From the NCBI GenBank assembly GCA_017882905.1, contig JADGOO010000088.1, positions 1 through 45,201 of the forward strand: a DNA stretch of 45,201 bases, given 5' to 3'. The position numbers and the translations under genes are program-made. Below, one piece after another: positions 13,991-32,151 of this stretch. Position 1 is the stretch's first letter, and the number at the start of each line of letters is the position of its first letter. The notes under the pieces are model-generated. The model worked only from the letters and a program-made list of their open reading frames with translations. It did no database searches and was not told where the DNA came from. The DNA is from Acidimicrobiia bacterium. GTDB lineage: Bacteria > Actinomycetota > Acidimicrobiia > IMCC26256 > PALSA-610.

Positions 13991-15577
13991 ATGATGGATC
14001 TTCAGCTCACCGATGTTCCGGCCCTGCGCGTTTCGCGCGGCCGCCTGCTCCTGGCCCCGGCGATCGCCGCCGCGCTGGCAGCGGTCGGTCTGGCCATGCA
14101 TTGGGACGGCCGCGACCTCGCCGGCCAGGTGTTCCGCGCCGATCTCATTCGCCACTACGGCTTCGTGCTGTGGAACAACCGCTGGTACGGCGGGCACGCA
14201 CTCTTCGACTACAGCGTGATCGCGCCGGCCCTCGGTGCGCTCGTCGGACCGCTCGTGCTCGGCGCGGCGAGCTGCGTGGCATCGGCCGCGCTCTTCGATC
14301 GCATCGTCGCGAACGCGTTCGGGCGCATGTCGTGGGCGGGTTCGTTGTGGTTCGCCGCGAGTGCCGTCACGAACCTTGCCGTGGGCCGCGTGACGTTCGC
14401 GGTCGGTGTCACGTTCGGGCTGGCGGCGGTGCTCTTCGTGCAGCAGCGCCACGCGTGGCCTGCCGCGGGCGCCGCCGCGCTGTGCTCGTTGGCGAGCCCT
14501 GTAGCGGGAGTGTTCGTCGCGATCGCGGCCGGCGCCGTCTTTTTGTCTCGCCGTGAAGATCGCGGGATCGCGGTGGCGACGGCGCTCGGTGCGTTGGTGC
14601 CGCTCGTCGTGGTGATGCTGGCGTTCCCGGGCGGCGGCTACTTCCCGTACGAGACCTGGGCTTATCTGTGGGATCTCGCAGTGTGCGCGATCGTCTTCGC
14701 GGCCGCGTCGCTCGCACCGAACCGGAGCGCGCTCACGGTGCGCTGGGGCGTGGCGCTGTACGCACTCGCGTCCACGATCGCGTTTGCGGCGCACACGGCG
14801 CTCGGCGAGAACATCAGCCGGCTCGGCCAGTACGTGGCGGGTCCGCTGCTCGCCTGCCTGCTGTGGCGGCGCCACCGCGTGGTGCTCGCGCTCGTGGCAC
14901 TGCCGTTGCTCTTCTGGCAGTGGTATCCCGCCTACGACGGCATCGCCACGGGCACGCACGATCCGTCGAGCCATGCCTCGTACTACCAACCGGTGGCGGC
15001 CTACCTGCACGGCCAGCCCGGCGTGCTCGGCCGCGTCGAGGTGCTGCCCACGTTCCGCCACTGGGAGTCCACGTACCTCGCGCTCGATGTCTCCATCGCG
15101 CGCGGCTGGCAGCGACAGCTCGACATGAGCTTCGACAAGGTGTTCTACGGCGATCTCACCACGGCCTCGTACCACCAGTGGCTCGACGAGAACGCGGTGC
15201 AGTACGTGGCGCTCCCCGACGTCTCGCTCGACTCGTCGGCCACGGCGGAACGTGCGCTCGTGCTGCGCGGGCTCCCGTACCTGCACGAGGTGCTGCACAC
15301 CGCACACTGGCGTGTGTGGAGCGTCGCCGACTACCACGGTTACGTGCAGGGCGCCGGGGCGATGGTGGCGCTCGGCCTCACCAACTTCAGCGTCAACGTG
15401 CGCCAAGCCGGCGATCTCGTGGTGCGCCTGCGGCCGTCGCCGCACTGGGCGATCCGCGGTGCCGGCCAGAGCGGCGCGTGCGTCGAGAGCACCTCCGACG
15501 GTTGGATCCGGCTGCGCCACCTGCAACCGGGCAGCGTGACGGTGGTGCAGGCGCTGATCGGGACGGGCTGCAGCTAG
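13991..15577 (+). CDS. polytopic membrane protein, GT-C-like, 528 aa
   Basis: About ten to eleven transmembrane segments occupy residues 20-310, followed by a ~200-residue extracytoplasmic C-terminal part. The first outer loop holds HWDGRDL and NNRWYGGHALFDYSV, the kind of acidic, aromatic loop seen in GT-C glycosyltransferases and related actinobacterial membrane proteins. The C-terminal part has HPD-like THDPSSHASYYQP and a beta-rich end. A mannosyl- or similar polyprenyl-sugar transferase activity is inference only. It converges on the GH26 gene with a 22-bp gap, at the end of the glycan region, which fits a role in the same surface polymer. Confidence 0.7.
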   Translation: MMDLQLTDVPALRVSRGRLLLAPAIAAALAAVGLAMHWDGRDLAGQVFRADLIRHYGFVLWNNRWYGGHALFDYSVIAPALGALVGPLVLGAASCVASAALFDRIVANAFGRMSWAGSLWFAASAVTNLAVGRVTFAVGVTFGLAAVLFVQQRHAWPAAGAAALCSLASPVAGVFVAIAAGAVFLSRREDRGIAVATALGALVPLVVVMLAFPGGGYFPYETWAYLWDLAVCAIVFAAASLAPNRSALTVRWGVALYALASTIAFAAHTALGENISRLGQYVAGPLLACLLWRRHRVVLALVALPLLFWQWYPAYDGIATGTHDPSSHASYYQPVAAYLHGQPGVLGRVEVLPTFRHWESTYLALDVSIARGWQRQLDMSFDKVFYGDLTTASYHQWLDENAVQYVALPDVSLDSSATAERALVLRGLPYLHEVLHTAHWRVWSVADYHGYVQGAGAMVALGLTNFSVNVRQAGDLVVRLRPSPHWAIRGAGQSGACVESTSDGWIRLRHLQPGSVTVVQALIGTGCS

Positions 15578-15599: not shown

Positions 15600-16682
15600 T
15601 CACCGACCGGCGAGTGCCACCAGCCATGATCGCGATGCCACGTCGGCTTTCATCGCGTGCGCGGCGACGGGAAACGACGTGAGCCGGTAGTCCTTGCCGT
15701 CGGACGGCCGCGCGTCGTAGTCGAAGTAGATCGCAGCCTTGACCGCGGGGTGGGCTTCGACCCAGCTCAGCTCCTCGTCGATCCAGTGCGGGTCATCACC
15801 CGTGGATCGGTTGTTGAGCCCCCATTCCGCCACCATCACCGGCTTGTGGTGCAGGCGCGCGAACGCCTCGATGCTGTCCATCCCTTGGTCGGCGTGCTGC
15901 ATGACGTCCCACGGGGCAGACCCGGGGTAGGCGTCCATGCCGATCCAGCCGACGACGTCATCGCCGGGGTAGTAGTCCCACATGCTGAGCCCGTGCCCGA
16001 CGGGAAGGGGCGCGAACAACGTCGGCGACCACACCAGCGTGACGTTGTCCACGCCGTGCAGCAGCGCGGCAACGTGGCGCCACGCGGCGACGAAGTCGCG
16101 CGGCGCGTTGCCGGGGCGAGGCGTGCCGGAGCAGTCGAACGTCGCCCACGGGTAGTAGCAGCCGTTGAACTCCCAGTTGATCCGGAGGAACACGGGTCGT
16201 CGGTACGTTCGCAGCTCGGTGACTCGGGCTCGTAGATAGGTGTCGACCGAGCCGTTCGCGATGGAAGCCTGCGATCCCGAGCCCGGGAGGTTCCAAGAGA
16301 TCATGAGCGCGACACCGGGCCGGCGCGCGACCTCGTGGAAGATCCAGTCGAAGCCGCCCATGGGTTGCGACCAGCGGTTGTAGATGGCGACGCTCGGGCG
16401 CCCGACGGCCGCGAGGAACGCGTCGAGGGCCCGGCCAGTTCCGTTTGTCGACACTCCGAGATAGCGCGAGCCGTCGGGTGGTTCGAATCGGGTCGGCGAC
16501 GTGCTCGCGGTGACGTGGCGCTCGGTGGCCGCGCCGACGGTGGCCAGCGGCGGCGCAACGCCGCGCCCGGCGCGCACCACCGCCGTTGCCGCCGTCGCCG
16601 CCAGCAGCGTCGCGAGCGCAATCGACGCGACTGCGACCGCGGGGTGACGGGCCAGGAAGCCACGGTCGGAAGGGGCGGACAG
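15600..16682 (-). CDS. secreted GH26-like glycoside hydrolase (probable CTG start)
   Basis: Retaining glycosidase of the GH26 (beta-mannanase-like) type. Counting from the GTG at 16580, the acid/base Glu is E137 in RINWEFNGCYYPW and the nucleophile E252 in KPVMVAEWG; DYYPGDDVVGWIGMDAYPG (202-220) is also typical. No ATG, GTG or TTG lies upstream of 16580, yet the frame there encodes a clear signal segment (HPAVAVASIALATLLAAT). A CTG at 16682 would give MSAPSDRGFLARHPAVAV and begins 5 nt after the stop of the preceding gene, which fits the packed operon. The product would be exported or membrane-anchored. It is the last gene of the glycan operon; the substrate is probably the polymer made by the GT2 synthase. 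Confidence 0.85.
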   Translation of the reverse strand: MSAPSDRGFLARHPAVAVASIALATLLAATAATAVVRAGRGVAPPLATVGAATERHVTASTSPTRFEPPDGSRYLGVSTNGTGRALDAFLAAVGRPSVAIYNRWSQPMGGFDWIFHEVARRPGVALMISWNLPGSGSQASIANGSVDTYLRARVTELRTYRRPVFLRINWEFNGCYYPWATFDCSGTPRPGNAPRDFVAAWRHVAALLHGVDNVTLVWSPTLFAPLPVGHGLSMWDYYPGDDVVGWIGMDAYPGSAPWDVMQHADQGMDSIEAFARLHHKPVMVAEWGLNNRSTGDDPHWIDEELSWVEAHPAVKAAIYFDYDARPSDGKDYRLTSFPVAAHAMKADVASRSWLVALAGR

Positions 16683-16687
16683 TGGCC

Positions 16688-19600
16688 CTATCCCAGCGTG
16701 ACGTTGATGTTGCTCACCGCGTGACGATCGGTCAGCGATCCGTTGCCGCCGCTGAACCCGACGAGGACCTGCGGGGGCGCAGCGATGGTGGTCGCCAGCA
16801 CCGCCTGTCCGTCCATGGCCACGGTCAGCGCGCCGCCGTTGAGGATCACGACGAAGTCGTGCGGCGTACCCCGCAGTGGCATGACGTTGGGGTTCGTCGC
16901 CGTCCAGCTCACCGAGCCGAAGGTTCCTGCGCTCCCGACGCCGACAAGGTTGCTCGATGGGTCAGTGGGTCCCTGGAAGGTCTGCAGACCGACGCACGTG
17001 CCGGGGATGCCGCTGTAGCCCAGACCGCCACCCGGCGACCCGAGCGCCGTCGGGAGGGCCTGCGACGCGTCGGCCAGCACGAGGCACAGACCGTCGGCAC
17101 CGGTCCCCGAATCGATCGTCGCTGTGAACGAGATCGTGATCCTCGTCGCGGTCGACACCGGGTGTATGGCGAAGGCCGAACCCGCTCCGTAGCCGGTCGC
17201 GGGCGTGAGCTGCAACGAGGTCGAACCGACCATCGACGCAAGACCGTTGAGCTGCCAACCCTTCGGCGGCGCGGCGGTCACCGACGGCCCGAGCGGCGGC
17301 GCTTGACCGGCGGCACCGATCTTGATCGCCACGGCCGACACCTTGTGCAGGTCCGTCAACGTTCCGGTCGAGCCCGTGAAGCCGAGACGGACCGTCGGAG
17401 GAAGGCTCACGATCGCCTGCACGGTGCGCGTCCCGTCGATTGCGACCGTGAGCACATTGCTCGTGACGGTCACATGGACGACGTGCGGTCGGCTGCGAAG
17501 GTTCGCGACGTTGGTCGACGACGTGATCCACTTCGGGCTCGTGCTCTTCAGCGCCGACGTGGCGATCGCGACGAAGTTGGCCGCCGGCGCCCCGGTGCTC
17601 TTGAACGTGTCGAGCACGACGGCTGTCGAAGGGATCCCCGCGAACCCGAGTGCGCCGGCGGCCGCGCCCACAGCGCTCGTACTCGTCGTCGGGTTTGCGA
17701 AGACGAGCGCGGTGCCGGTGCCGCCGGTGCCGCCGGTCATCGTCGAAGTGAAGGTGATGTCGAGACCGTCCGCGGTGACGGGCGTGGTGTACCAAGCCGA
17801 ACCCGCGGCCGATGTCGTCGCGGGCGTGAGCTGCACGACGTTGGTGTTGACCATCGTGGCCTTGCCGTTCAGCTTCCAGCCGGTCGGGGGCGCGGCGATC
17901 GTCTTCGGCGCCGGCGGCACGTAGGTGGCGATGTTGACGTTGCTCACGCTGTGGGCGTCGGTGAGGCCACCGGTGCTGGCGGTGAAGCCGACGAGCACGT
18001 TCGGAGGGAGCGTGACCTTCGTTCGCAGCACCAAGGTGCCGTCGATCCACGTCTGGAGCATCCCGGCGCTGACGGTGACGTGCACCGAGCGCGACACGCC
18101 GCGGAGACTGGGCATGTTCGTGTTGGCCGCGAGGAAGGTGAGCGCTGCGGGTGCCCCGCCCGGGGTGGTTTGTACGACGCCCACGAAGCTGGGCGCGTTG
18201 ATCGAGGCGTTGGGGTAGGTATCGATGGCCACGGCGACGCCGGGTAAGCCCGCGAAACCGAGGCCGCCACCGGCCGCGCCGAGTGCGGTCGCTCCGCTCG
18301 CCGGGTCGATGAACGCCAGCGTGAGACCGTCGGCACCGCTGCCACCGCCGATCGTCGATGTGAAGGCCACATCGAGATTGGCCGAGGTCACTGCGGTCGC
18401 AGAGAAGGCGGAACCGGCCTCGTCGGTCGCCGCGCCGGTGAGGTCGACGGTCGACGCGTTCATCGTGGCCGAACCGTTGAGCTGCCACCCGGGGCCGGGC
18501 GGTGGAAGCGTGGTGTACGGCACGCCGGTCCCGGTCATGTTGACGTCGTGCACTCCGGAGCCGTCGTCGGCGGTGATCGTCCATGGCACGGTCGAAGGTC
18601 CGACGGCTGTCGGCGTGAACGTGACGGTCTCGGTGAGTGAGGCGCCGGCCGGCACGACAGTTCCCTCGGCCAGCGTCGACGTCGCGGCGAAGCCCCCGAT
18701 GATGGGCGGCTTCGACTTGAGGATCGTCATCGGACTACCGCCGGTGTTCGCGACCAGGAAGCTCAGCGTCGCGGTGCTGTTCAGTCCGACGTTGCCGAAG
18801 GCCACGGTGGACGGGAGCACGAGATCCGCAGGCAACGCCGTGGTCGCAGCAAGCGGCACCGCCGCGGTCGCCTGGTCCGTCGTGATCGCGGTCGTGTCGG
18901 CGTACGGGGTCGGGCTCGTGCCCGACTGGTCGGGGGGAGTGAACGTGACCGTCATCGCGACGCTGGCCCCAGGGGCGATCGTGGCACCGGGAGGAGGGGC
19001 GCCTGCGACCGTGAACGGAGCGGCCGGCAGCTCAACCGACTGAACGGTCTGGGTGGTCGTGGCCGTGTTGGTGAATGTCACCGACCAGCCCACGGCTTGC
19101 GAGCCGCCGGGCACCGTCCCGAAGTCGACGCTCGCGGGTGACGTACTGATCGGATACGTGGGCGCTTGTCCGGTGCCGCTCACGGGGATGGTGGAGACGC
19201 CGCTGTCGGTGGTCACCGTGAGCGTGGCGGTGACGGGACCGAGCTGGGTCGGCGTGAACGTCATGGGCACGCTGATGGTGCCAGCCGGCGCCAGTGTCGC
19301 AGGCAGTGACGGCGTCGGCGTGCCCAAGGTGAAGGCGCTGTTGTCGATCGACATCGCGGTCACGTTCGTTGCGCTGCTCGCGGTGAGCGTCGCGGACGCG
19401 TGGGCGTTCGATCCGACTGTTGTCGGTGTGAAGGCGAGCGACGGCCCGGTCAGCGTTGGGCCGCTCCCAAGGACGCCGAACGCGAGGACGTGGCCATCGC
19501 GCGTGCCCACATAGACGCGGCCGTTGTCGACGACGGGCGGGGCGAACTTGCTCGCGGTTCCAATCGCGGCTTGGAAGCGCAGGGTGAGCGCGCCACCACT

Positions 19601-21070
19601 CGGCACCGCGTCGTACGCGCGTAGCTGCGCGTTGACGCCGCTGCCGTCCCAGGTGTGCACCACCCAGACGAGCGCCGTCCCGCTCGTCGTGCCATTCGAT
19701 GTCACGACCGGCGGGCTCGATCCGAAGCCGAAGATGTCGTTCGAGGTCGCGGCCAAGCTGAGTGCCGGGTTACCCGCGCCGTCGAGGACGCGCTGGTACA
19801 CGCGCAGCAAACCCGAGCTCCCGGCCGCGCCGCCGCCGGGGCTGGCGGTGGGGAGGTACACGTATCCGCCGTCACCCGGCCATACCGCCGGCTTGCTCCA
19901 CACGCCGCCGAACGGACCGAACTTGCCGAGGACGTTGTCGACGGTGGTGCCGCGCCCGCCGAGGTTGTCGCGGTCGAGCAGGTACACGTAGCCCTGCTTG
20001 CCGGCGATGACAGCGAGGTGCGGATGCGCGGCCGTCCCGAAGCTGTCGGGCAACCCGGTCGCGCCGCCCGAGCCGAAGTCCTGATCGTTGCCGTTCAAGG
20101 CGTTGGCGTCGAACGGCGCGAAGAAGTCGGTGGGCGCGAGCGATCCGTCGGCCTGGACCGTGAGCCGCACCACTGATTCGCCGAACCCGACGCTCGGCGT
20201 GGCCGCGAGTCCGGCGCCGGCCGGCGGCGAGAAGCCGTTGCCCGTGGCCAGGACGATCTGGTTGGGACCATCCGACATGAGACCCGCGCCCGACATCCAG
20301 ATGCCCGCGCCGGTCTGCGTCGCGTCTTCGGTGGACCACATCGTCGTCATGGCCCCGCTCGTGCCGATGCCGACGATGAGCCCGCGATACGGACCGACGT
20401 CGCAGTGCCCGCCGAACGCGGCGTACACCACCCCGTTCAACAGCAGCAGGCCGGGTCGTTGCAGCTCATACGTCGCGTCGAACGGAGCACCGGGCGCGTT
20501 GGTCGGGGTGCCGCCGACCACGACCGGCCAGCCGGACCGCTCGCTTCCCGTGACCACATCGACCGCGTGAGCGACGTATTGGCCGGATCCCGAAGTCCCG
20601 CTCGCGTACGTCTTGGCGAAGAAGTACGCGGTGCCGGTCGTCGGATCGACGACGGGCGTACCGGTGATGCCGACCGAGGGCGTGAGATCGCCGCAACCGA
20701 GGTCGAGCGGGTTCCACGGAACACCCACGTTGCGATGCCACCGAATCGCTCCGGTCGCCGGGTCGATGCCGTAGACGTCGTTGGTCTCGGTGGCGACGAG
20801 CAAGGTGTTGCTCGCGACGAGCGGTTGTGCGTACACCTGTCCCGTCACAGCGGTGGCGAACAGCTGGCCGAAGCTCGATCCACCGACCACGGCGGGCGTG
20901 AGTACTGGTTGGTCGGCGAACCAGCCGGTGCGCAGGTTGTCAGCCGCCGTCGTGACGGTGTCGGCGCGCGCGGGCGCGGTGCCTGCGATTGCGAGTGCGG
21001 GTACGACGAGCGAGATCGTGACGACGATCCGCGCGCCGCGCAGACGACGGGTCGTGCCGAGCGATCTCAT
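16688..21070 (-). CDS. secreted multidomain protein: PQQ-like propeller, Ig-like domains, three lectin-like repeats
   Basis: A 1460-aa exported protein. A signal peptide (1-36) ends at ARA-DTV. Residues about 40-530 form a PQQ/outer-membrane-type beta propeller, with repeated units such as GQVYAQPLVASNTLLVATE and GYVYLLDRDN. About 530-860 hold three Ig-like 'choice-of-anchor'/ASPM-like modules (VDFGTVPGGSQAVGW, VAFGNVGLNSTATLSF). The last 600 residues are three similar L-type-lectin-like domains of about 200 aa. It likely binds glycans at the cell surface. ATG 21070 has GGGAG upstream and overlaps the stop of the GT39 gene as ATGA, so the two are translationally coupled. Confidence 0.85.
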   Translation of the reverse strand: MRSLGTTRRLRGARIVVTISLVVPALAIAGTAPARADTVTTAADNLRTGWFADQPVLTPAVVGGSSFGQLFATAVTGQVYAQPLVASNTLLVATETNDVYGIDPATGAIRWHRNVGVPWNPLDLGCGDLTPSVGITGTPVVDPTTGTAYFFAKTYASGTSGSGQYVAHAVDVVTGSERSGWPVVVGGTPTNAPGAPFDATYELQRPGLLLLNGVVYAAFGGHCDVGPYRGLIVGIGTSGAMTTMWSTEDATQTGAGIWMSGAGLMSDGPNQIVLATGNGFSPPAGAGLAATPSVGFGESVVRLTVQADGSLAPTDFFAPFDANALNGNDQDFGSGGATGLPDSFGTAAHPHLAVIAGKQGYVYLLDRDNLGGRGTTVDNVLGKFGPFGGVWSKPAVWPGDGGYVYLPTASPGGGAAGSSGLLRVYQRVLDGAGNPALSLAATSNDIFGFGSSPPVVTSNGTTSGTALVWVVHTWDGSGVNAQLRAYDAVPSGGALTLRFQAAIGTASKFAPPVVDNGRVYVGTRDGHVLAFGVLGSGPTLTGPSLAFTPTTVGSNAHASATLTASSATNVTAMSIDNSAFTLGTPTPSLPATLAPAGTISVPMTFTPTQLGPVTATLTVTTDSGVSTIPVSGTGQAPTYPISTSPASVDFGTVPGGSQAVGWSVTFTNTATTTQTVQSVELPAAPFTVAGAPPPGATIAPGASVAMTVTFTPPDQSGTSPTPYADTTAITTDQATAAVPLAATTALPADLVLPSTVAFGNVGLNSTATLSFLVANTGGSPMTILKSKPPIIGGFAATSTLAEGTVVPAGASLTETVTFTPTAVGPSTVPWTITADDGSGVHDVNMTGTGVPYTTLPPPGPGWQLNGSATMNASTVDLTGAATDEAGSAFSATAVTSANLDVAFTSTIGGGSGADGLTLAFIDPASGATALGAAGGGLGFAGLPGVAVAIDTYPNASINAPSFVGVVQTTPGGAPAALTFLAANTNMPSLRGVSRSVHVTVSAGMLQTWIDGTLVLRTKVTLPPNVLVGFTASTGGLTDAHSVSNVNIATYVPPAPKTIAAPPTGWKLNGKATMVNTNVVQLTPATTSAAGSAWYTTPVTADGLDITFTSTMTGGTGGTGTALVFANPTTSTSAVGAAAGALGFAGIPSTAVVLDTFKSTGAPAANFVAIATSALKSTSPKWITSSTNVANLRSRPHVVHVTVTSNVLTVAIDGTRTVQAIVSLPPTVRLGFTGSTGTLTDLHKVSAVAIKIGAAGQAPPLGPSVTAAPPKGWQLNGLASMVGSTSLQLTPATGYGAGSAFAIHPVSTATRITISFTATIDSGTGADGLCLVLADASQALPTALGSPGGGLGYSGIPGTCVGLQTFQGPTDPSSNLVGVGSAGTFGSVSWTATNPNVMPLRGTPHDFVVILNGGALTVAMDGQAVLATTIAAPPQVLVGFSGGNGSLTDRHAVSNINVTLG
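16691..17270 (-). repeat. lectin-like repeat 3
   Basis: Third copy, starting GWQLNGLASM and ending HAVSNINVTLG at the protein's C terminus. All three copies share a GW-LNG-A-M opening, GTGADG- or GTGG-type loops, GALGFAGIP/GGLGYSGIPG, and a closing LTD-H-VS-(N/A)-(V/I). Boundaries are approximate. Confidence 0.7.
17325..17890 (-). repeat. lectin-like repeat 2
   Basis: Second copy, opening GWKLNGKATM and closing LTDLHKVSAVAIKIG. It is the most divergent in the GTGADG loop, which reads GTGGTGTALVF here, so ligand binding may differ. Confidence 0.7.
17930..18495 (-). repeat. lectin-like repeat 1
   Basis: First copy, opening GWQLNGSATM and closing LTDAHSVSNVNIATY. It follows the Ig-like modules. 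The DNA spacing between the openings of the three copies is about 606 and 623 bp. Confidence 0.7.
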
Positions 21071-22698
21071 GGAGCATCTCCCGCTCGTCCAACCGACGCG
21101 GATCCAGTCGACCGGCGCCACAGCGAGTACGCGCCACTTCCATAGCTGGTCTGGAACGGCAGCGTTGCGACCAGCTGGTAGCCGCCGGCCTGTGCGATGT
21201 CGTCTCGTATCGCGACCGCCGTCGCGGCGTCGGCTCCGTAGCGCAGCTCGATGACGTCGAAGTAGCCGTCGTCGATCGCAGCCCGGTACGCGTCGAGGCC
21301 GCTCAGGTGGGCCCCGCCGCGCGTCGTGTACTCGAACCAATGAAGGTCGGTCCACTGCCACGGTTGCAGTAGGTGACGCAACCGGTAACGGGGTACCTCG
21401 TCCTCCTCAGCGAGGACCCGGCCCGACACGGGTCGCACGAGCGACTTGAGCGTGGCCACGAGCCGGTCGCTGTTCGGCCATTCGCGCTCGAGGCGAACCG
21501 ACTGGGAGAGCCCGGTCCCAACGAGCACGAGACCAACCGCGACGGCGGCCGCGAAGCGGCGACCCGAAAGCCGTGCGGCGCGGCCGGCGAGTCGAACCAG
21601 CGCGAGGCCGACGAGCGGCGCCGCGAAGAAGAGCCCGAAGCCCACGTGCTTCGCGAGCGAGACCGGTTCGCCCTTGTAGAGGTGGTACGCGGGCGCGAGG
21701 AAGACGGTGCCGAACAGCAACGCGCCGAGCGCCCGCTGCCGGCGCGGCACCGCGAAGCACCCGGCCAGGGCGACAGCGGCGAAGCACCCCCCGAGCGACA
21801 GCGCGCGGCTCACGAGATACCACGCCGTCGCGGGCACCTCCACCGTGCGGTTGACGGTCGTGGATCGCAGACCGTCGAGGATCGCGGTGCCGAACACCGC
21901 GACCACCAGACCCACGACCGCGCTCGACGCGGCCAGCGCCGCGGCGAGCTTTCGCATCGCCGCCCACGAGTCGCGGTGGCGACGCGACTCAACGACGAGC
22001 ACGACGAGAATCGTCGGGACGTAGAGCGCGGCGGCGTACTTCGTCAACACCGCGAGCACCGCGAGTGCGCCGACGGCGCCGGCCCACCGCACGCTGGGCG
22101 CCTCGGCGGCCCGCACCGAGGCGTACGTTGCCAGCGCGAGCAGCCCGACGCACATCGCGTCCATGGTGGCGAGGTGGCCGATGAACAAGACGGGCGCCGA
22201 CAGTGCGAACGCGGCCGCGGCCGGCGCGGCCGCATGCACCCCGAACAGGCGCTTCGTGATTCGGTGCACGCAGAGGGTCGCGACCACCATCCATACGAGG
22301 CTCAAGGCGCGCGCGCCGGCGACGCCCCAGACGCTGTCGACCAACGATGCGATCACGGGGTAGAGGCCCGGGCTCCCGGAGAAGTACGTCGAGAAGTTCC
22401 CGTAGAGCGGTGTCCCGTGCTGGACGTGCGCCGTGATCTGATGGCCCGCCCAGATGTACAGCGCCTCGTCTTGGAAGACGGAGTTGCGCAGGCGCAGCGA
22501 AGCGATCGCCTGCGCGCCGATGATGCTCGCAACCACCCAGCGACCGGACCGAAGCCGGCGCGGCCTGAGCCACGCGGTCGCTTCGTCGTCGTCGGCCGTG
22601 ACGGCGTGCGGCGACGCGGGCGCCGGGACGGTGGCGATCGCCGCTTCGAGCTCGGCATCCTGGAGGCGGCCACCGGATGGGGCGAGGACGTCGGTCAC
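21067..22698 (-). CDS. GT39/PMT-type membrane glycosyltransferase
   Basis: A 543-aa integral membrane protein of the GT-C fold. After a soluble N-terminal tail of ~50 residues, a first transmembrane segment leads to the outer loop SVFQDEALYIWAGHQI with the Asp-Glu pair D77-E78, the site used by ArnT/PMT-like enzymes that transfer sugars from polyprenyl phosphate. About nine more membrane segments follow, with STYFSGSPGLYP in a later loop, then a soluble C-terminal part (about 420-543). Its start ATG 22698 overlaps the GT2 gene's stop as ATGA, and its own stop overlaps the next gene the same way. It probably decorates the glycan or the secreted protein; the sugar is unknown. Confidence 0.85.
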   Translation of the reverse strand: MTDVLAPSGGRLQDAELEAAIATVPAPASPHAVTADDDEATAWLRPRRLRSGRWVVASIIGAQAIASLRLRNSVFQDEALYIWAGHQITAHVQHGTPLYGNFSTYFSGSPGLYPVIASLVDSVWGVAGARALSLVWMVVATLCVHRITKRLFGVHAAAPAAAAFALSAPVLFIGHLATMDAMCVGLLALATYASVRAAEAPSVRWAGAVGALAVLAVLTKYAAALYVPTILVVLVVESRRHRDSWAAMRKLAAALAASSAVVGLVVAVFGTAILDGLRSTTVNRTVEVPATAWYLVSRALSLGGCFAAVALAGCFAVPRRQRALGALLFGTVFLAPAYHLYKGEPVSLAKHVGFGLFFAAPLVGLALVRLAGRAARLSGRRFAAAVAVGLVLVGTGLSQSVRLEREWPNSDRLVATLKSLVRPVSGRVLAEEDEVPRYRLRHLLQPWQWTDLHWFEYTTRGGAHLSGLDAYRAAIDDGYFDVIELRYGADAATAVAIRDDIAQAGGYQLVATLPFQTSYGSGAYSLWRRSTGSASVGRAGDAP

Positions 22699-25475
22699 CG
22701 CGCTTGGCCCTTCTCGACATCCGGCGCGACACGGTCGGCGCCGGCGCCCGGCGCAATGGTGCGGAATCCGCTCAGCTGATCCGCGGCGCGCGAGAACGCG
22801 GCGATCAGCCGCGGATCAGCGCTGAGCGACCACGCGGCCCGTTCCGCTGCTGTCCCGTCCGACGTCGGGCTCCCTTCGTGGTAGATCAGCGCCGCGATGT
22901 CGCTGCGTGCACGGATCGCCGACCCGAGGTGTTGGAGCCAGGCGATGCGCTGCTCCTCGGGTCCGGCCACGCTGGTCTCGATGAACAACGGATCGCGTGG
23001 GTGCTCGGCGCGAGTGCTGGCGATCACGTGTTGCGGATCCGGCCACGTCGTACCGGGAAACTCGATCAGGCTCAGCAGCACTGCGTCGTAGGTGCCGGCC
23101 GGCGGCGCATACGGGCCGTCGGCCGACGGATCCGCGGGCGCCCAGATCCACGTGAGGTTGTGTACGCCCTCGGAGCGGAACACGGAGCGCACGTGCGTCC
23201 ATGCCCGCGCGCTGTCTTGCGGGATGCCGCCGTTCGCGACCGCCGACGTGACGGCCCAGTCACGATCGACTTGTGGCAGCACGGTGAGGTCGACCGGCTT
23301 GCCCCACTCCCGGATCTCTCGCGCCCATCGCTGCAGCTCGCCGTCGTGGACTCCGTTGGCGACGGAGAGGAGGCTCGCCTCGAAGGCAGGTCGCCGCGGT
23401 GCGCTGAAGAGCAGCGTGACCCATGGGCGAGCTCCGTCGGCAACGACTGTCTGTGCCCATGTTCGATCGAAGTGATCGCTGATCTCCTGCGTACGACCGA
23501 CGACGCCGACGTGGTAACCCAACCGCGTGTCGATCGTCGGAAGCGCCGCGGCGAGCACACCCGTCGTGATGTCGAGGCCGACGCGTGGGTTCGCCGTGCC
23601 CGCCGCCGCGGCGCGTGCTTGATGATTGTTCGATGCCAAGGGCGCGACGGCGACGACGAGCGCGATCACAACGACGCCGAATGCCGCCGCGCTCTGCCAC
23701 GTGATCCGCGGCACGCTGAGCGTTCGCCGCCAGAGGAACGACCGCCCGCGCGCGAACATGCGGTCGGCCGCCGCCAGCCCGACGAACGCGGCCAGCAGCA
23801 GCCCTGTGTACGCGGCCCAGAGCGCACTGATCAGCACTGCGCCGCCGCCACCGCGCACGATGGCGGCGACGATCGCACCGACGCACGCAGCCAGGCACGC
23901 GATCTGGAACGCGATCGTGCGCAGCATCGAACCGCCGACTCGGCGCTTCGGAGTGACGACGAACGTACCGCCGCCGCGGATGAGACCGCGTAGGGCGGCG
24001 ACGGTCAGGACAGGGAAGGCGCCGAACCCGATCACGATGCCCCGCCAGCCCGCCTTGTCCTTGGTTGCGTGCCAGAAGGCGAGCTGCGTGAGGAGCGCGT
24101 ACGCGACGAAGTGGGCCAGGAACTGCTCGAGGTTCGCGCCCCGAACGGCGGCGATTCCGGTAGTGAGGAACACGATCGGCACGGCCACGTACACGAGGTC
24201 GCGCAGCCCGCACAGGTAATGCGTGCTCGCGAGTGCGTACTGCACGCGTTGCTCGTGGCGCAGTCCGCCGTGCCGCCGCGGCATGAAGATGTCTCGCCAG
24301 TGGCGGCGCAGGATCCCGAGCGAGCCGCGCGCCCAGCGGCGCTGCTGTCCGAAGTAGCTCCCGAGCTCGAGCGGGCCGAGGCCGTGTGCGAGCACGTCGG
24401 GCACGAACACGCTGCGCCAACGCTGGTGCAGCATGATGGAAGCCGCGAAGTCCTCCGTCACCGAGGTCTGCGGGAAGCCGCCGATCTCATCGAGCGCTTC
24501 GGCGCGCATGACGACGTTGGTTCCGCAGATGGAGGCCGCGTTGGTGGCCGACTTGCCCTGGCACAGCACCCGGTAGAAGACCGCCTGTTGGTCGTTCGCC
24601 CAGCGCGCGACCGGATTCTCGAGATTGCGGTAGTACTGGCCGGTCTGCACCCATGCCACGCCGGAGTCGCGCAGGTTGGGGATCGTGGCGAGGAGGAACC
24701 CGGGTTCTGCCACCTGATCGGCATCGAAGATGACGATCAGCGCGTCACCCGTCGCGCCGACCGCCCGACGTGCGTGCTCGAGGTTGCCGGCCTTGGCCCC
24801 GCCGCCAACGGCGCGTGTGATGCAACGAACGGCGAGCCGTCGACAGAGCGCTTCGATGTCGGCGGAACAGGTTGCGCCCGCCACCCCGCCGTCGTTGCAG
24901 ACCACGATCTCGACGCGTGCGTCCGAGTGCGCAGCGAGATAGATCTCGCGTGCCACGAGCGCCGCGTGCACGGTCTGGCTGACGATGTCGGCACCCTCGT
25001 CAACCGTCGGGATGAGGACGAAGACCGGGCGGGTCGTCGGGTCTTCGTCGTCGGACAACCTCACGGGTTCGCGAGGCCAGAGCGTGTAGTGGAACCCGAG
25101 GATCTGGAGCGCGGCGAACACCTCCGCCGCGTACAGCGGGATCGACAACCAGGGTGCTTGCCAGTTGATGACCCCGGCGCGCCAGACGAGGTAGTCGCAG
25201 ATGGTGGCCGCCACCATCGCGGTGAGGATGGCGGTCTGCTTGTCGTGGCGCGTCATCTTGCGACGCGCGACGAAGCCGAACGCGAGGACTCCGGCCGCGA
25301 GCGTGAGCAGCATCCCGGCTTGCAGCCGGGCCAGCCAGACCACCGCAGATCCGACCAACAGGGCGATGCCGAGGTCGACCCACGAGGAGGGGCGACGTGG
25401 TGGCCGACGGTCGATGAGCGCGCGCGGCACGTCGCCCGGATCCTTGTTCGATGACGTCCTTGTCGATCGGAACAC
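22695..25475 (-). CDS. GT2 cellulose-synthase-like transferase fused to a degenerate GH26-like domain
   Basis: Membrane beta-glycan synthase of 926 aa. Helices lie at about 33-100, then the GT2 domain: VCNDGG (D195), FDADQ (D251/D253), TED (D342) and QQRRW (377-381), the D,D,D,Q-x-x-RW set of processive synthases. Four or more helices follow to about 612. Residues 630-900 are an extracellular domain resembling GH26: RAWTHVRSVFRSEGVHNLTWIW, PLFIETS with the nucleophile-like E833, but VLPQVDRDW with Gln735 where the acid/base Glu is expected. So this domain is probably a binding or guiding part, not an active hydrolase. Start is GTG 25475 with AGGAGG 14 nt upstream. It is the first gene of the four-gene operon. 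Confidence 0.88.
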   Translation of the reverse strand: MFRSTRTSSNKDPGDVPRALIDRRPPRRPSSWVDLGIALLVGSAVVWLARLQAGMLLTLAAGVLAFGFVARRKMTRHDKQTAILTAMVAATICDYLVWRAGVINWQAPWLSIPLYAAEVFAALQILGFHYTLWPREPVRLSDDEDPTTRPVFVLIPTVDEGADIVSQTVHAALVAREIYLAAHSDARVEIVVCNDGGVAGATCSADIEALCRRLAVRCITRAVGGGAKAGNLEHARRAVGATGDALIVIFDADQVAEPGFLLATIPNLRDSGVAWVQTGQYYRNLENPVARWANDQQAVFYRVLCQGKSATNAASICGTNVVMRAEALDEIGGFPQTSVTEDFAASIMLHQRWRSVFVPDVLAHGLGPLELGSYFGQQRRWARGSLGILRRHWRDIFMPRRHGGLRHEQRVQYALASTHYLCGLRDLVYVAVPIVFLTTGIAAVRGANLEQFLAHFVAYALLTQLAFWHATKDKAGWRGIVIGFGAFPVLTVAALRGLIRGGGTFVVTPKRRVGGSMLRTIAFQIACLAACVGAIVAAIVRGGGGAVLISALWAAYTGLLLAAFVGLAAADRMFARGRSFLWRRTLSVPRITWQSAAAFGVVVIALVVAVAPLASNNHQARAAAAGTANPRVGLDITTGVLAAALPTIDTRLGYHVGVVGRTQEISDHFDRTWAQTVVADGARPWVTLLFSAPRRPAFEASLLSVANGVHDGELQRWAREIREWGKPVDLTVLPQVDRDWAVTSAVANGGIPQDSARAWTHVRSVFRSEGVHNLTWIWAPADPSADGPYAPPAGTYDAVLLSLIEFPGTTWPDPQHVIASTRAEHPRDPLFIETSVAGPEEQRIAWLQHLGSAIRARSDIAALIYHEGSPTSDGTAAERAAWSLSADPRLIAAFSRAADQLSGFRTIAPGAGADRVAPDVEKGQAR

Positions 25476-25781: not shown

Positions 25782-25854
25782 GCGCTCGTAGCTCAATGGA
25801 TAGAGCATTTGACTACGGATCAAAAGGTTGGGGGTTCGAATCCCTCCGAGCGCG
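25782..25854 (+). tRNA. tRNA-Arg (anticodon ACG)
   Basis: A full cloverleaf: acceptor arms GCGCTCG / CGAGCGC, D arm GCTC-AATGGATA-GAGC, anticodon arm TTTGA-CTACGGA-TCAAA with anticodon ACG, a 5-base variable loop, T arm GGGGG-TTCGAAT-CCCTC (one G-U pair) and discriminator G. The CCA end is not encoded. It reads CGU/CGC/CGA codons once A34 becomes inosine. Its 3' end borders the integrase relic. Confidence 0.97.
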
Positions 25855-25875
25855 CTGAGGAAACTGCTGGTCAGA

Positions 25876-29509: not shown

Positions 29510-29521
29510 CTGAGAGTTGAC
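29505..29521 (+). promoter_or_regulatory. operator 2 (GTCAA-N7-TTGAC, 7-bp arms)
   Basis: A perfect 17-bp palindrome GTCAACT-GAG-AGTTGAC. Its centre is 28 bp from that of operator 1. Its right arm forms TTGACA (29517-29522), a consensus -35 for the plus-strand ATP-grasp gene, while the left arm gives TTGACG for the minus-strand regulator. One site could therefore control both directions. Confidence 0.7.
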
Positions 29522-29543
29522 ACAACGGCTCGCACCCGTGGAT

Positions 29544-29569
29544 CCCGCTGTCACGCAACCGACAGCGGG
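29544..29569 (+). promoter_or_regulatory. inverted repeat in the divergent promoter region
   Basis: A perfect 9-bp inverted repeat CCCGCTGTC / GACAGCGGG with an 8-base spacer. It lies around the expected -10/start of the plus-strand transcript and could be a hairpin in its 5' leader or a second binding site. Confidence 0.5.
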
Positions 29570-29630
29570 TGTGACCGCGCGGCAACGCGGCCGACGTCGG
29601 CGCGACACCGCCGTCGGCCACGCTGGCCCG

Positions 29631-31211
29631 GTGGGCGATCTCCTCGACCGATACGACCTCGCCGGGGCCTTCGACGAGATGTTCGCGGCCGCGGGCGAGC
29701 CGCGCACGCCGTACCTCGGTCTCGTCGCCCATCTCGAGACCTTGTCGCGCAGCGATCTCGACGACCGGTGCGCCATGCGCGACCGGGCCTTTCGCGATCA
29801 GGGCATCACCTTCGCGCTCGGTGGCGAGGAGGAACGGCCGTTCCCGCTCGATCTAGTTCCGAGGATCCTGGCCGCGCGCGACTGGACCACGATCGAGGCG
29901 GGCGTGCGCCAACGGGTGCTCGCGCTCGAGCGGTTCCTCGCCGACGTGTATGGCGAACGGGCGATCCTGCACGACCGCGTGATCCCGCACCGCATGGTCG
30001 TCACCTCGGCGCACTTCCACCGTGAAGCGGCCGGGATCGTTCCCGCCGGAGGCGTGCGCGTGCACGTGGCGGGGGTCGACCTCGTGCGCGATCGCGACGG
30101 TCGGTTCCGCGTGCTCGAGGACAACCTGCGTTGCCCGTCGGGGGTCTCGTACGTGGTCGAGAACCGCCGCGCCATGACGCGCGTGTTCCCCGAGATGTTC
30201 CAGAGCCACCACGTGCGGCCCGTCGCCGACTACCCGATGCGACTCCTCGCCGCGCTGCGGGCCACGGCGCCGCCCGCGGCGGGCAACAACCCGACGGTGG
30301 TCGTGCTCACACCGGGTGTGTACAACTCGGCGTACTTCGAGCACTCGTTCCTGGCGCGCCAGATGGGCGTCGAGCTCGTGGAAGGGCGCGACCTCGTGTG
30401 CCGCGACCAAGTGGTGTTCATGCGCACCACGAACGGCGAGCAGCGCGTCGACGTCGTGTATCGCCGCATCGACGACGAGTTCCTCGATCCGGTGCACTTC
30501 CGGCCCGATTCGATGGTCGGCTGTCCGGGACTGTTGAACGCGGCTCGGGCGGGCAACGTGACAGTCGCGAACATGGTGGGCAACGGCGTCGCCGACGACA
30601 AGGCGATCTACAGCTACGTGCCCGACATGATCGAGTACTACCTGGGCGAACGTCCGATCCTCGACAACGTGCAGACGTATCTGCTCGAAGATCCCGACGT
30701 TCTGGCCCACGCGCTCGCGCGTCTCGATCAACTCGTGTGGAAGCCCGTCGACGGGTCGGGCGGCTACGGCATCGTGATCGGGCCACGCGCCCGCGACCAC
30801 GAGCTCGACGCGCTGCGCACGCGTGTGCTCGCCGACCCGCGCGGCTGGATCGCGCAAGAGCCCATCGCGCTCTCCACCGCACCCACGTACATCGACGGCT
30901 CGCTCGCGCCGCGCCATCTCGATCTCCGCCCGTTCGCGGTGCACGACGGCGAGTCGGTGTGGGTCGCGCCGGGTGGCCTCACGCGTGTGGCGTTGCCCGA
31001 AGGCAGCTTGATCGTGAACTCCAGCCAAGGCGGTGGGTCGAAGGACACGTGGGTGATCGCCGACCCGTTGGCGCCGGCGTCGGTCGCGCCGTCGGAGCTG
31101 CCCGCGCCCGCGCCCGAAGCGATCGACTGCACACCGCTCGAACGGGGCCGCCAGGATCCCGGCCCGCTCGTCGCGCCGCTCGACCAGCAGCAACAGCAAC
31201 AGCAGCAATGA
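29631..31211 (+). CDS. circularly permuted ATP-grasp protein (CPATP-grasp type 2)
   Basis: A 526-aa ATP-grasp ligase-like protein. It contains the family landmarks RFRVLEDNLRCPSGVSYVVE (about 160-180), PTVVVLTPGVYNSAYFEH (about 222-239), DPVHFRPDSMVGCPGLLNA, VANMVGNGVADDKAIYSYVP, LVWKPVDGSGGYGIVIG and EPIALSTAPTYIDGSLAPRH. With the alpha-E and transglutaminase genes that follow, it forms a conserved set predicted to make or attach an amino-acid/peptide-type modification; that role comes from comparative genomics and is not proven. It ends in eight glutamines encoded by CAG/CAA repeats. GTG 29631 gives the family start; GTG 29571 is a possible longer start. Confidence 0.88.
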   Translation: MGDLLDRYDLAGAFDEMFAAAGEPRTPYLGLVAHLETLSRSDLDDRCAMRDRAFRDQGITFALGGEEERPFPLDLVPRILAARDWTTIEAGVRQRVLALERFLADVYGERAILHDRVIPHRMVVTSAHFHREAAGIVPAGGVRVHVAGVDLVRDRDGRFRVLEDNLRCPSGVSYVVENRRAMTRVFPEMFQSHHVRPVADYPMRLLAALRATAPPAAGNNPTVVVLTPGVYNSAYFEHSFLARQMGVELVEGRDLVCRDQVVFMRTTNGEQRVDVVYRRIDDEFLDPVHFRPDSMVGCPGLLNAARAGNVTVANMVGNGVADDKAIYSYVPDMIEYYLGERPILDNVQTYLLEDPDVLAHALARLDQLVWKPVDGSGGYGIVIGPRARDHELDALRTRVLADPRGWIAQEPIALSTAPTYIDGSLAPRHLDLRPFAVHDGESVWVAPGGLTRVALPEGSLIVNSSQGGGSKDTWVIADPLAPASVAPSELPAPAPEAIDCTPLERGRQDPGPLVAPLDQQQQQQQQ

Positions 31212-31233
31212 GCTCGGCGGGAGCGGGCGCGCC

Positions 31234-32151
31234 GTGCTGAGCCGCATCGCGGAGTCGCTCTACTGGATCGGTCGCTACGTGGAGCGGGCCGAAGACACCG
31301 CGCGCATCCTCGACGTGCACTTCCACCTGCTCGTCGAGGATCGTGGGGCCGAGGCCGCGGAGTCGTACCGCACGCTGTTGCGCGCGATGGGATTGCCGTC
31401 GGCGGTCGACGCGATGGACGGTCAGGCGGTCGCCGCGCTGCTCACCCACAACGACACGTTCTCCGGTTCGATCGCGACGTCGCTCACCTCGGCGTGGGAC
31501 AACGCACGCGGCGCCCGCGAGGTGATCTCGTCGGAGCTGTGGGAGTGCCTGAACGTCACGCATCGCAGCCTCGGTTCGTGGGATCGCTACGGCGCGGCAC
31601 CACACGAGTTCCTCCGCTGGGTGAAGGAACGTGCGGCGATGGCTGCCGGTCTCGTCGACACCACGATGAGCCGAGACGAGGGTTGGCGCTTCCTCGTGCT
31701 GGGCCGCAGTGTGGAGCGGGCCGACATGACGGTGCGGTTGCTCTCGGCGCGCTATGGGGAGCGTTGGGGTGCGGCGGGTTGGCGCGTGCTGCTGCGCTGC
31801 TGCTCTGCGCACGAGGCCTTCCTGCGCCGCCATCACGGCATGGTGCAGCCGTCGTTGGCCCTCGAGTTCCTGCTCACCGACAGCACCTTCCCGCGCTCGG
31901 TGCTGTTCGCACTGCGCGAGGCCGAGACGTGCGTGGTCGCGCTGAGCGCCGCCGCCGGCCCCGATCGAGGCGGCGACGCGGGGCGTGTGCTCGGCCGCGC
32001 CGCGGCCGAGCTCTCGTACGCGTCGATCGCAGAGATCGACCGGGAGCTCGGCGACCGGCTCGCCGAGCTCGAGGCCGCGTGCAACGCGGCCCACGAGGCC
32101 GTGACGCGACGCTTCTTCCGCGCGAGCGTGCCGATCGAATGGAGCGCGTGA
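31234..32151 (+). CDS. alpha-E domain protein (DUF403)
   Basis: A 305-aa all-helical protein: MLSRIAESLYWIGRYVERAEDTARILDV-type start (first 20 residues MLSRIAESLYWIGRYVERAE are diagnostic), LNVTHRSLGSWDRY, GRSVERADMTVRLL and EFLLTDSTFPRSVLFALREAE. This family almost always follows an ATP-grasp gene of the type just upstream, and its GR-ER-D motifs suggest an active site or phosphate-binding part. The GTG at 31234 is 22 bp after the ATP-grasp stop. Exact reaction unknown. Confidence 0.9.
   Translation: MLSRIAESLYWIGRYVERAEDTARILDVHFHLLVEDRGAEAAESYRTLLRAMGLPSAVDAMDGQAVAALLTHNDTFSGSIATSLTSAWDNARGAREVISSELWECLNVTHRSLGSWDRYGAAPHEFLRWVKERAAMAAGLVDTTMSRDEGWRFLVLGRSVERADMTVRLLSARYGERWGAAGWRVLLRCCSAHEAFLRRHHGMVQPSLALEFLLTDSTFPRSVLFALREAETCVVALSAAAGPDRGGDAGRVLGRAAAELSYASIAEIDRELGDRLAELEAACNAAHEAVTRRFFRASVPIEWSA

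Follow-up and report, generated by a model that had tools for sequence, protein, structure and literature searches.

Four genes of a polysaccharide synthase operon

We analysed a contig of a soil actinobacterium of the class Acidimicrobiia (GCA_017882905.1, JADGOO010000088.1; 45,201 nt), the whole of which is called the window here. Four genes on its minus strand encode, from the head of the operon, a GT2 synthase fused to a degenerate GH26-like domain (pseudo-GH26), a GT39 glycosyltransferase, a lectin/propeller protein and a separate GH26 (Table 1). An initial annotation had described these as a four-gene module joined by ATGA overlaps. All four genes are present, and an ATGA overlap does join the GT39 gene to the lectin gene, which starts at 21070; however, the fusion and the GT39 gene overlap by GTGA, and the separate GH26 gene overlaps no neighbour.

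Table 1. Positions in the window of the operon genes and of the domains and residues discussed
Feature	Position	Strand	Remarks
GT2-pseudo-GH26 fusion	22695..25475	-	926 aa; BcsA-like processive synthase with a predicted extracytoplasmic C-terminal pseudo-GH26
FxVTxK gating-loop motif (FVVTPK, residues 505-510)	23946..23963	-	17-fusion alignment; motif as in PMC10374906
Pseudo-GH26 (beta/alpha)8 domain (residues 628-899)	22779..23594	-	follows an extra hydrophobic segment (about 590-618)
Q735 codon	23271..23273	-	position of the GH26 acid/base Glu; alignment
E833 codon	22977..22979	-	strand beta7; alignment and model
GT39/PMT_2-like GT-C membrane glycosyltransferase	21067..22698	-	543 aa; DE catalytic-type motif (D77, E78)
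Lectin/propeller protein	16688..21070	-	1460 aa; secreted; PQQ-type propeller, ASPM/HYDIN Ig-like domain and three L-type lectin stretches; accessory
Separate GH26	15600..16580 as called	-	both catalytic Glu (E137, E252); nearest is the lichenase CtLic26A

The synthase part of the fusion matches PF13641 (E 1.6e-25) and carries the D,D,D,QxxRW motifs expected of a GT2 synthase, as annotated at the outset (D195, D251xD253, TED342 and QQRRW), together with FVVTPK. Its nearest known protein by sequence is BcsA, and TIGR03030 places it as CelA/BcsA-like (E 5e-57) with a score of 193.4 bits, far below the equivalog cut-off of 699.1. The AlphaFold2 model of the fusion (mean predicted local distance difference test score, pLDDT, 76.7) also resembles BcsA (Foldseek E 5.7e-26; VIA-align Z 33.4 to E. 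coli BcsA), and the VIA-align superposition on BcsA ends at about residues 578-599. The FxVTxK gating motif has been described for BcsA and for the Romboutsia mixed-linkage glucan synthase RiGT2 (PMC10374906); its residues F505, T508 and K510 are invariant in our alignment of 17 fusions from Actinomycetota, Chloroflexota and Dormiibacterota, two of which are identical, leaving 16 distinct sequences. The fusion shares its D,D,D,QxxRW and FxVTxK motifs and its membrane and GT-A architecture with BcsA and with RiGT2, a bacterial (1,3;1,4)-beta-glucan synthase of family GT2, but it differs from both in lacking a detected PilZ domain (no match in a Pfam search) and in having an extra membrane segment, a putatively outward-facing pseudo-GH26 and a GT-C partner gene. 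C-terminal to the gating loop there are two hydrophobic segments and a further one at about residues 590-618, followed by the pseudo-GH26; by analogy with BcsA and from the segment count, this domain should lie outside the cell. Four Ktedonobacteria fusions (L059, L063, L068 and L122) carry a further N-terminal GT2 domain like dolichol-phosphate-mannose synthase (DPMS) or GtrB, giving the order GT2-GT2-pseudoGH26.

The genes between the synthase and the separate GH26 are a GT39 enzyme and a lectin/propeller protein, as first read: the latter has its three L-type lectin stretches, and the former matches the PMT_2-like family PF13231 (E 6e-16; 59.5 bits, cut-off 26.1). The GT39 sequence finds no match in the PDB, and its fold is GT-C (Foldseek matches to AglB, ALG12 and ArnT, and also to OST, PMT and AftB), with a conserved DE motif. 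The separate GH26 matches PF02156 (24.9 bits, cut-off 20.2), and its E137 and E252, numbered from the GTG at 16580, align with the catalytic residues of CtLic26A. That both glutamates are present agrees with the initial annotation; secretion would require a start codon outside the standard set, for instance CTG. Upstream of the called gene (16580-16690) lies a signal-like stretch that no ATG, GTG or TTG precedes. Since the only standard starts come after this stretch, translation probably begins at a CTG, either 16682 or 16655, so that the signal-like stretch is included. Convergent with this gene is a 528-aa membrane open reading frame (ORF) at 13991-15577 without Pfam matches.

The fused domain is a GH26-like barrel without the GH26 catalytic apparatus

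The C-terminal domain taken alone has no Pfam match, but several comparisons relate it to GH26. A phmmer search with the domain finds 2vi0 (E 3.5e-4), and hhalign pairs the domain profile with free GH26 proteins at probability 100, placing Q735 on the acid/base Glu. The model of the domain is a (beta/alpha)8 barrel whose best Foldseek match is CtLic26A (E 3.4e-12; TM-score, or template modelling score, 0.75 on the target), and VIA-align superposes residues 628-908 on CtLic26A over 260 residues (Z 22.6; root mean square deviation 3.5). The fused domain thus has the (beta/alpha)8 fold of clan GH-A and sits near GH26 structures, as had been predicted from the letters. Among solved structures, the GH26 lichenase CtLic26A comes nearest to the fused domain and to the free GH26 alike; it differs from the former, which has neither the HE motif nor the acid/base Glu and whose relatives do not conserve the nucleophile.

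The acid/base position is His in 11 of the 17 fusions and Gln in the remaining 6, and Glu occurs in none, which bears out the earlier reading of Gln735 as a replaced acid/base Glu. The companion claim, that a nucleophile-like E833 remains, is not supported: eleven fusions have E at this position, but three have K, two Q and one D, and the K, Q and D of relatives led us to reject E833 as a preserved nucleophile. E833 also lies one residue closer to the preceding Pro than the usual nucleophile does, and aligns with it only through a one-residue gap. Among free GH26 matches, by comparison, the acid/base Glu is present in 84 of 86 and the nucleophile Glu in 83 of 86, some ORFs having been counted twice. 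In GH26 the acid/base Glu usually stands in an HE motif, and the catalytic-site positions have been listed (PMC6556568). Measured against that list, the catalytic-site Arg, His and Gly are also replaced in the window's domain, while the +1-type Trp (740) is retained in 15 of the 17 fusions; Asp is invariant at 737, 782 and 786. Since the acid/base Glu is lost and the nucleophile is not conserved, the pseudo-GH26 most probably no longer hydrolyses, and we are confident that it is not a GH26-type hydrolase.

Loss of catalytic residues has not been accompanied by loss of the domain. Mean pairwise identity among the fusions is 49% in the pseudo-GH26 and 59% in the GT2 part, and 37 pseudo-GH26 positions are invariant across all 17. 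Twenty of these 37 lie on the catalytic face, against 76 of 234 other positions, a moderate enrichment (p 0.01). Because the dead domain is itself conserved, we regard it as a maintained pseudoenzyme.

Distribution and gene neighbourhoods of the fusion

Relatives of the fusion occur in Actinospica, an Acidimicrobiia metagenome-assembled genome (MAG), Dictyobacter and other Ktedonobacteria, other Chloroflexota and a Dormiibacterota MAG, with further carriers in genomes G553, G970, G1010 and G1022. Occurrence is patchy: within the window's order, 2 of 58 genomes have the fusion, and none of the 13 other genomes of its family does. In 400 genomes drawn around Dictyobacter, fusions and free GH26 proteins are clearly set apart, the former scoring E 1e-112 or better and the latter E 2.6e-20 or weaker. 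In a quick tree, all 16 pseudo-GH26 rows form one clade (Shimodaira-Hasegawa-like approximate likelihood ratio test, SH-aLRT, 100). The same tree groups the window's pseudo-GH26 with that of Actinospica (98), and its separate GH26 likewise (94), while G361, from the same order as the window, groups elsewhere. This pattern suggests horizontal transfer, perhaps of the fusion and the separate GH26 together. A tRNA-Arg (ACG) gene lies at 25782-25855, about 300 bp upstream of the operon head. tRNA genes are common integration points, and its position may bear on the patchy distribution.

A GT39 gene is present at every fusion locus, directly after the fusion or, in L053, one gene later; in L059 and L121 it appears in two frames. 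No other neighbour is constant, and what is conserved as a unit is this pair of fusion and GT-C gene. The expectation that the four genes would be found together in relatives is therefore borne out only for this pair: the lectin gene is special to the window, the separate hydrolase changes family, and in most relatives the four do not occur together, so that we reject the module as first described as the unit. Eight of the 16 loci have a secreted glycosidase close by. It is a GH26 in the window and in L061, which also has a GH12 attached to a PQQ propeller (PDB match E 4e-6); L053 has a GH12 alone, 34% identical to that of L061, and L067 has a GH16 matching an endo-1,3-beta-glucanase (E 1.5e-61). 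A GH5/39-like family, grouped by BLAST, is found in L059, L068, L065 and L066. Only the L068 member passes the Pfam cut-off; the L065 gene is on the opposite strand, and the L066 protein has no match to the PDB by sequence.

Some loci also contain candidate donor genes. Small GT2 genes like DPMS or ArnC adjoin the core pair in L053, L069 and L070, and GtrA stands beside it in L069 only; in the window genome, a GtrA/DPMS-like ORF is on another contig. Three-component GT-C systems act outside the membrane, and in them GtrA/GtrB-type sets feed GT-C enzymes (PMC11127046). The GtrB/DPMS-like and GtrA genes of some relatives suggest that the GT-C enzyme here may likewise add sugars from a lipid carrier. 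Compared with the three-component GtrA/GtrB/GT-C systems of extracytoplasmic glycosylation, including the GT136 system of that study, the fusion loci share the GT-C fold and, in relatives, the DPMS/GtrB-like GT2 and in one case GtrA. They differ in that the acceptor would be a chain from the fused synthase and in that the donor genes are unlinked in the window.

The same three families occur together in an unfused arrangement. In another actinobacterial family a related GH26 is found in 93 of 200 genomes, and in all of the 30 best-scoring loci that we examined, GT2, GH26 and GT39 are separate same-strand genes in that order, the order and strand of the fusion loci. Unlike the fused domain, however, their GH26 keeps both Glu (30 of 30), and FxVTxK is found in none of the 30 GT2 proteins. 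Because their GT2 lacks this motif, these clusters are not simply the unfused ancestor, and we do not derive the fusion from them; in the quick tree, a long branch leads to the pseudo-GH26 clade. Other variants combine GT2 with GH26 in different ways. G246 (L141:6336-7325) has a separate degenerate GH26 between GT2 and GT39, with Gly at both catalytic sites and a lipoprotein-like start. A Bacteroidetes MAG (L078:8048-11836) encodes a single protein made up of GT2, a GH26 judged degenerate from one alignment, and a GH2-like TIM barrel, and in a Roizmanbacteria MAG of the candidate phyla radiation (L076:677-4622) a separate GH26 adjoins a GT2-GH26 fusion that keeps both Glu. We found nothing on GT2-GH26 fusions in the open-access literature that we searched; a published GH26 in a Wzx/Wzy-type cluster belongs to a different system. 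A CP_ATPgrasp and Alpha-E gene pair lies further along the window, at 29517-32151.

A proposed chain-handling role at the synthase exit

We propose that the fusion and GT39 form a two-gene core. The GT2 part would make a cellulose-like, probably beta-1,4-containing glucan and extrude it through its membrane channel. At the outer-face exit the pseudo-GH26 would act without hydrolysis, most likely binding the emerging chain and holding or steering it. The GT-C partner, GT39, would act on the same side of the membrane and probably adds sugars to the chain from a polyprenyl-phosphate donor. A separate secreted glucanase (GH26 here; GH12, GH16 or GH5/39-like elsewhere) would trim or release the product, as BcsZ does for cellulose. 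In the window, the lectin protein might retain the chain at the surface, as originally suggested. The original suggestion that the fused copy binds or guides the exported chain is in keeping with our results, as a GH26 fold, loss of the acid/base Glu in all 17 fusions and conservation of the domain fit binding or guiding and not cutting. A mannan product is unlikely, and we have dropped it as first choice: the separate GH26 is nearest to a lichenase (CtLic26A, E 2.6e-18, followed by AlXyn26A and 4zxo), has no chain named mannanase among its PDB matches at E up to 0.1, and is replaced elsewhere by hydrolases that include GH12 and GH16 glucanases. Because the nearby hydrolases mostly belong to beta-glucanase families, we infer a beta-glucan rather than a mannan.

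Several observations weigh against this account. The model was built from a shallow alignment of 14 rows, and its loop 736-750 has pLDDT below 50. Eight of the 16 loci show no hydrolase in the stretch seen, and the GH16 and GH5/39-like enzymes could have substrates other than beta-glucan. No GtrA/GtrB-like genes adjoin the core in the window, and only some relatives have them; protein or lipid, rather than the chain, could be what the GT-C enzyme glycosylates. The evidence for function comes from sequence, a model and gene context, and the polymer is assigned by inference. We hold the account as a whole, in which a domain that does not hydrolyse handles the chain where it leaves a synthase of decorated beta-glucan, to be evenly balanced between right and wrong.

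The pseudo-GH26 could also serve structure or regulation: it would stand in for PilZ or BcsB, stabilising or gating the synthase, and would hold no glycan. No PilZ was found at the place that it occupies in BcsA, the pseudo-GH26 is attached directly to the extra membrane segment, and RiGT2 loses activity when its PilZ is removed even though that PilZ does not bind cyclic di-GMP (PMC10374906). We nevertheless think this unlikely, as the catalytic face has a modest surplus of invariant residues, a pattern that fits a ligand groove better than a scaffold. We would give about the same weight to an operon that builds a glycoprotein or anchored surface glycan, with the GT-C partner as a protein or lipid glycosyltransferase and polysaccharide as one of several products. 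The PMT_2 match, the likeness of the fold to OST, AglB and PMT as well as to ArnT and AftB, and a large secreted third gene product that could be the substrate all fit this alternative, but that third gene is not conserved while GT39 is, and no protein-substrate gene recurs beside the core pair in the loci examined.

Two further explanations concern the altered active site. Myrosinase is a GH1 enzyme with Gln at the acid/base position, and with this precedent the fused domain might keep an altered chemistry, for example transfer from an activated, lipid-linked donor, which could proceed without acid catalysis. Restriction of the acid/base site to His or Gln and the invariant Asp at 737, 782 and 786 would suit such a reaction. 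The nucleophile position, however, can be E, K, Q or D, so that no common retaining mechanism would serve all fusions, and we consider this reading very improbable. Least credible of all is decay, in which the domain would be left over from a GT2-GH26 fusion and would no longer do anything; both catalytic positions do vary, but the whole barrel is kept in 17 of 17 fusions from three phyla, with its invariant positions and mean identity of about 49%, and the acid/base site is confined to two residues.

Returning to chain handling as the preferred role, the nearest parallels are synthase-dependent exopolysaccharide systems with BcsZ, PgaB or PelA, which likewise place a processive synthase and an outside-acting glycoside hydrolase in one locus. 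In the fusion loci, by contrast, the synthase itself contains an inactive hydrolase, and the active enzyme is encoded by a gene of its own that can be exchanged. A broader conjecture, which we advance with considerable doubt, is that GH26 barrels have generally been recruited to cellulose-synthase-like enzymes as chain handlers and have lost catalysis independently (in the fused clade of Actinomycetota, Chloroflexota and Dormiibacterota, in L141 and in L078), with the handler passing the nascent chain directly to a GT-C decorator and so coupling decoration to extrusion.

Synthase-dependent polysaccharide export repeatedly needs hydrolases, and whether these cut or bind is often unclear. With an inactive hydrolase in cis and active ones of varying family encoded separately beside it, this synthase allows the two roles to be tested apart. 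In Actinomycetota and Chloroflexota the fusion points out, in addition, a polysaccharide pathway that is absent from the papers we found, and GT2-pseudoGH26 followed by GT39 provides a sequence signature by which this pathway may be recognised.

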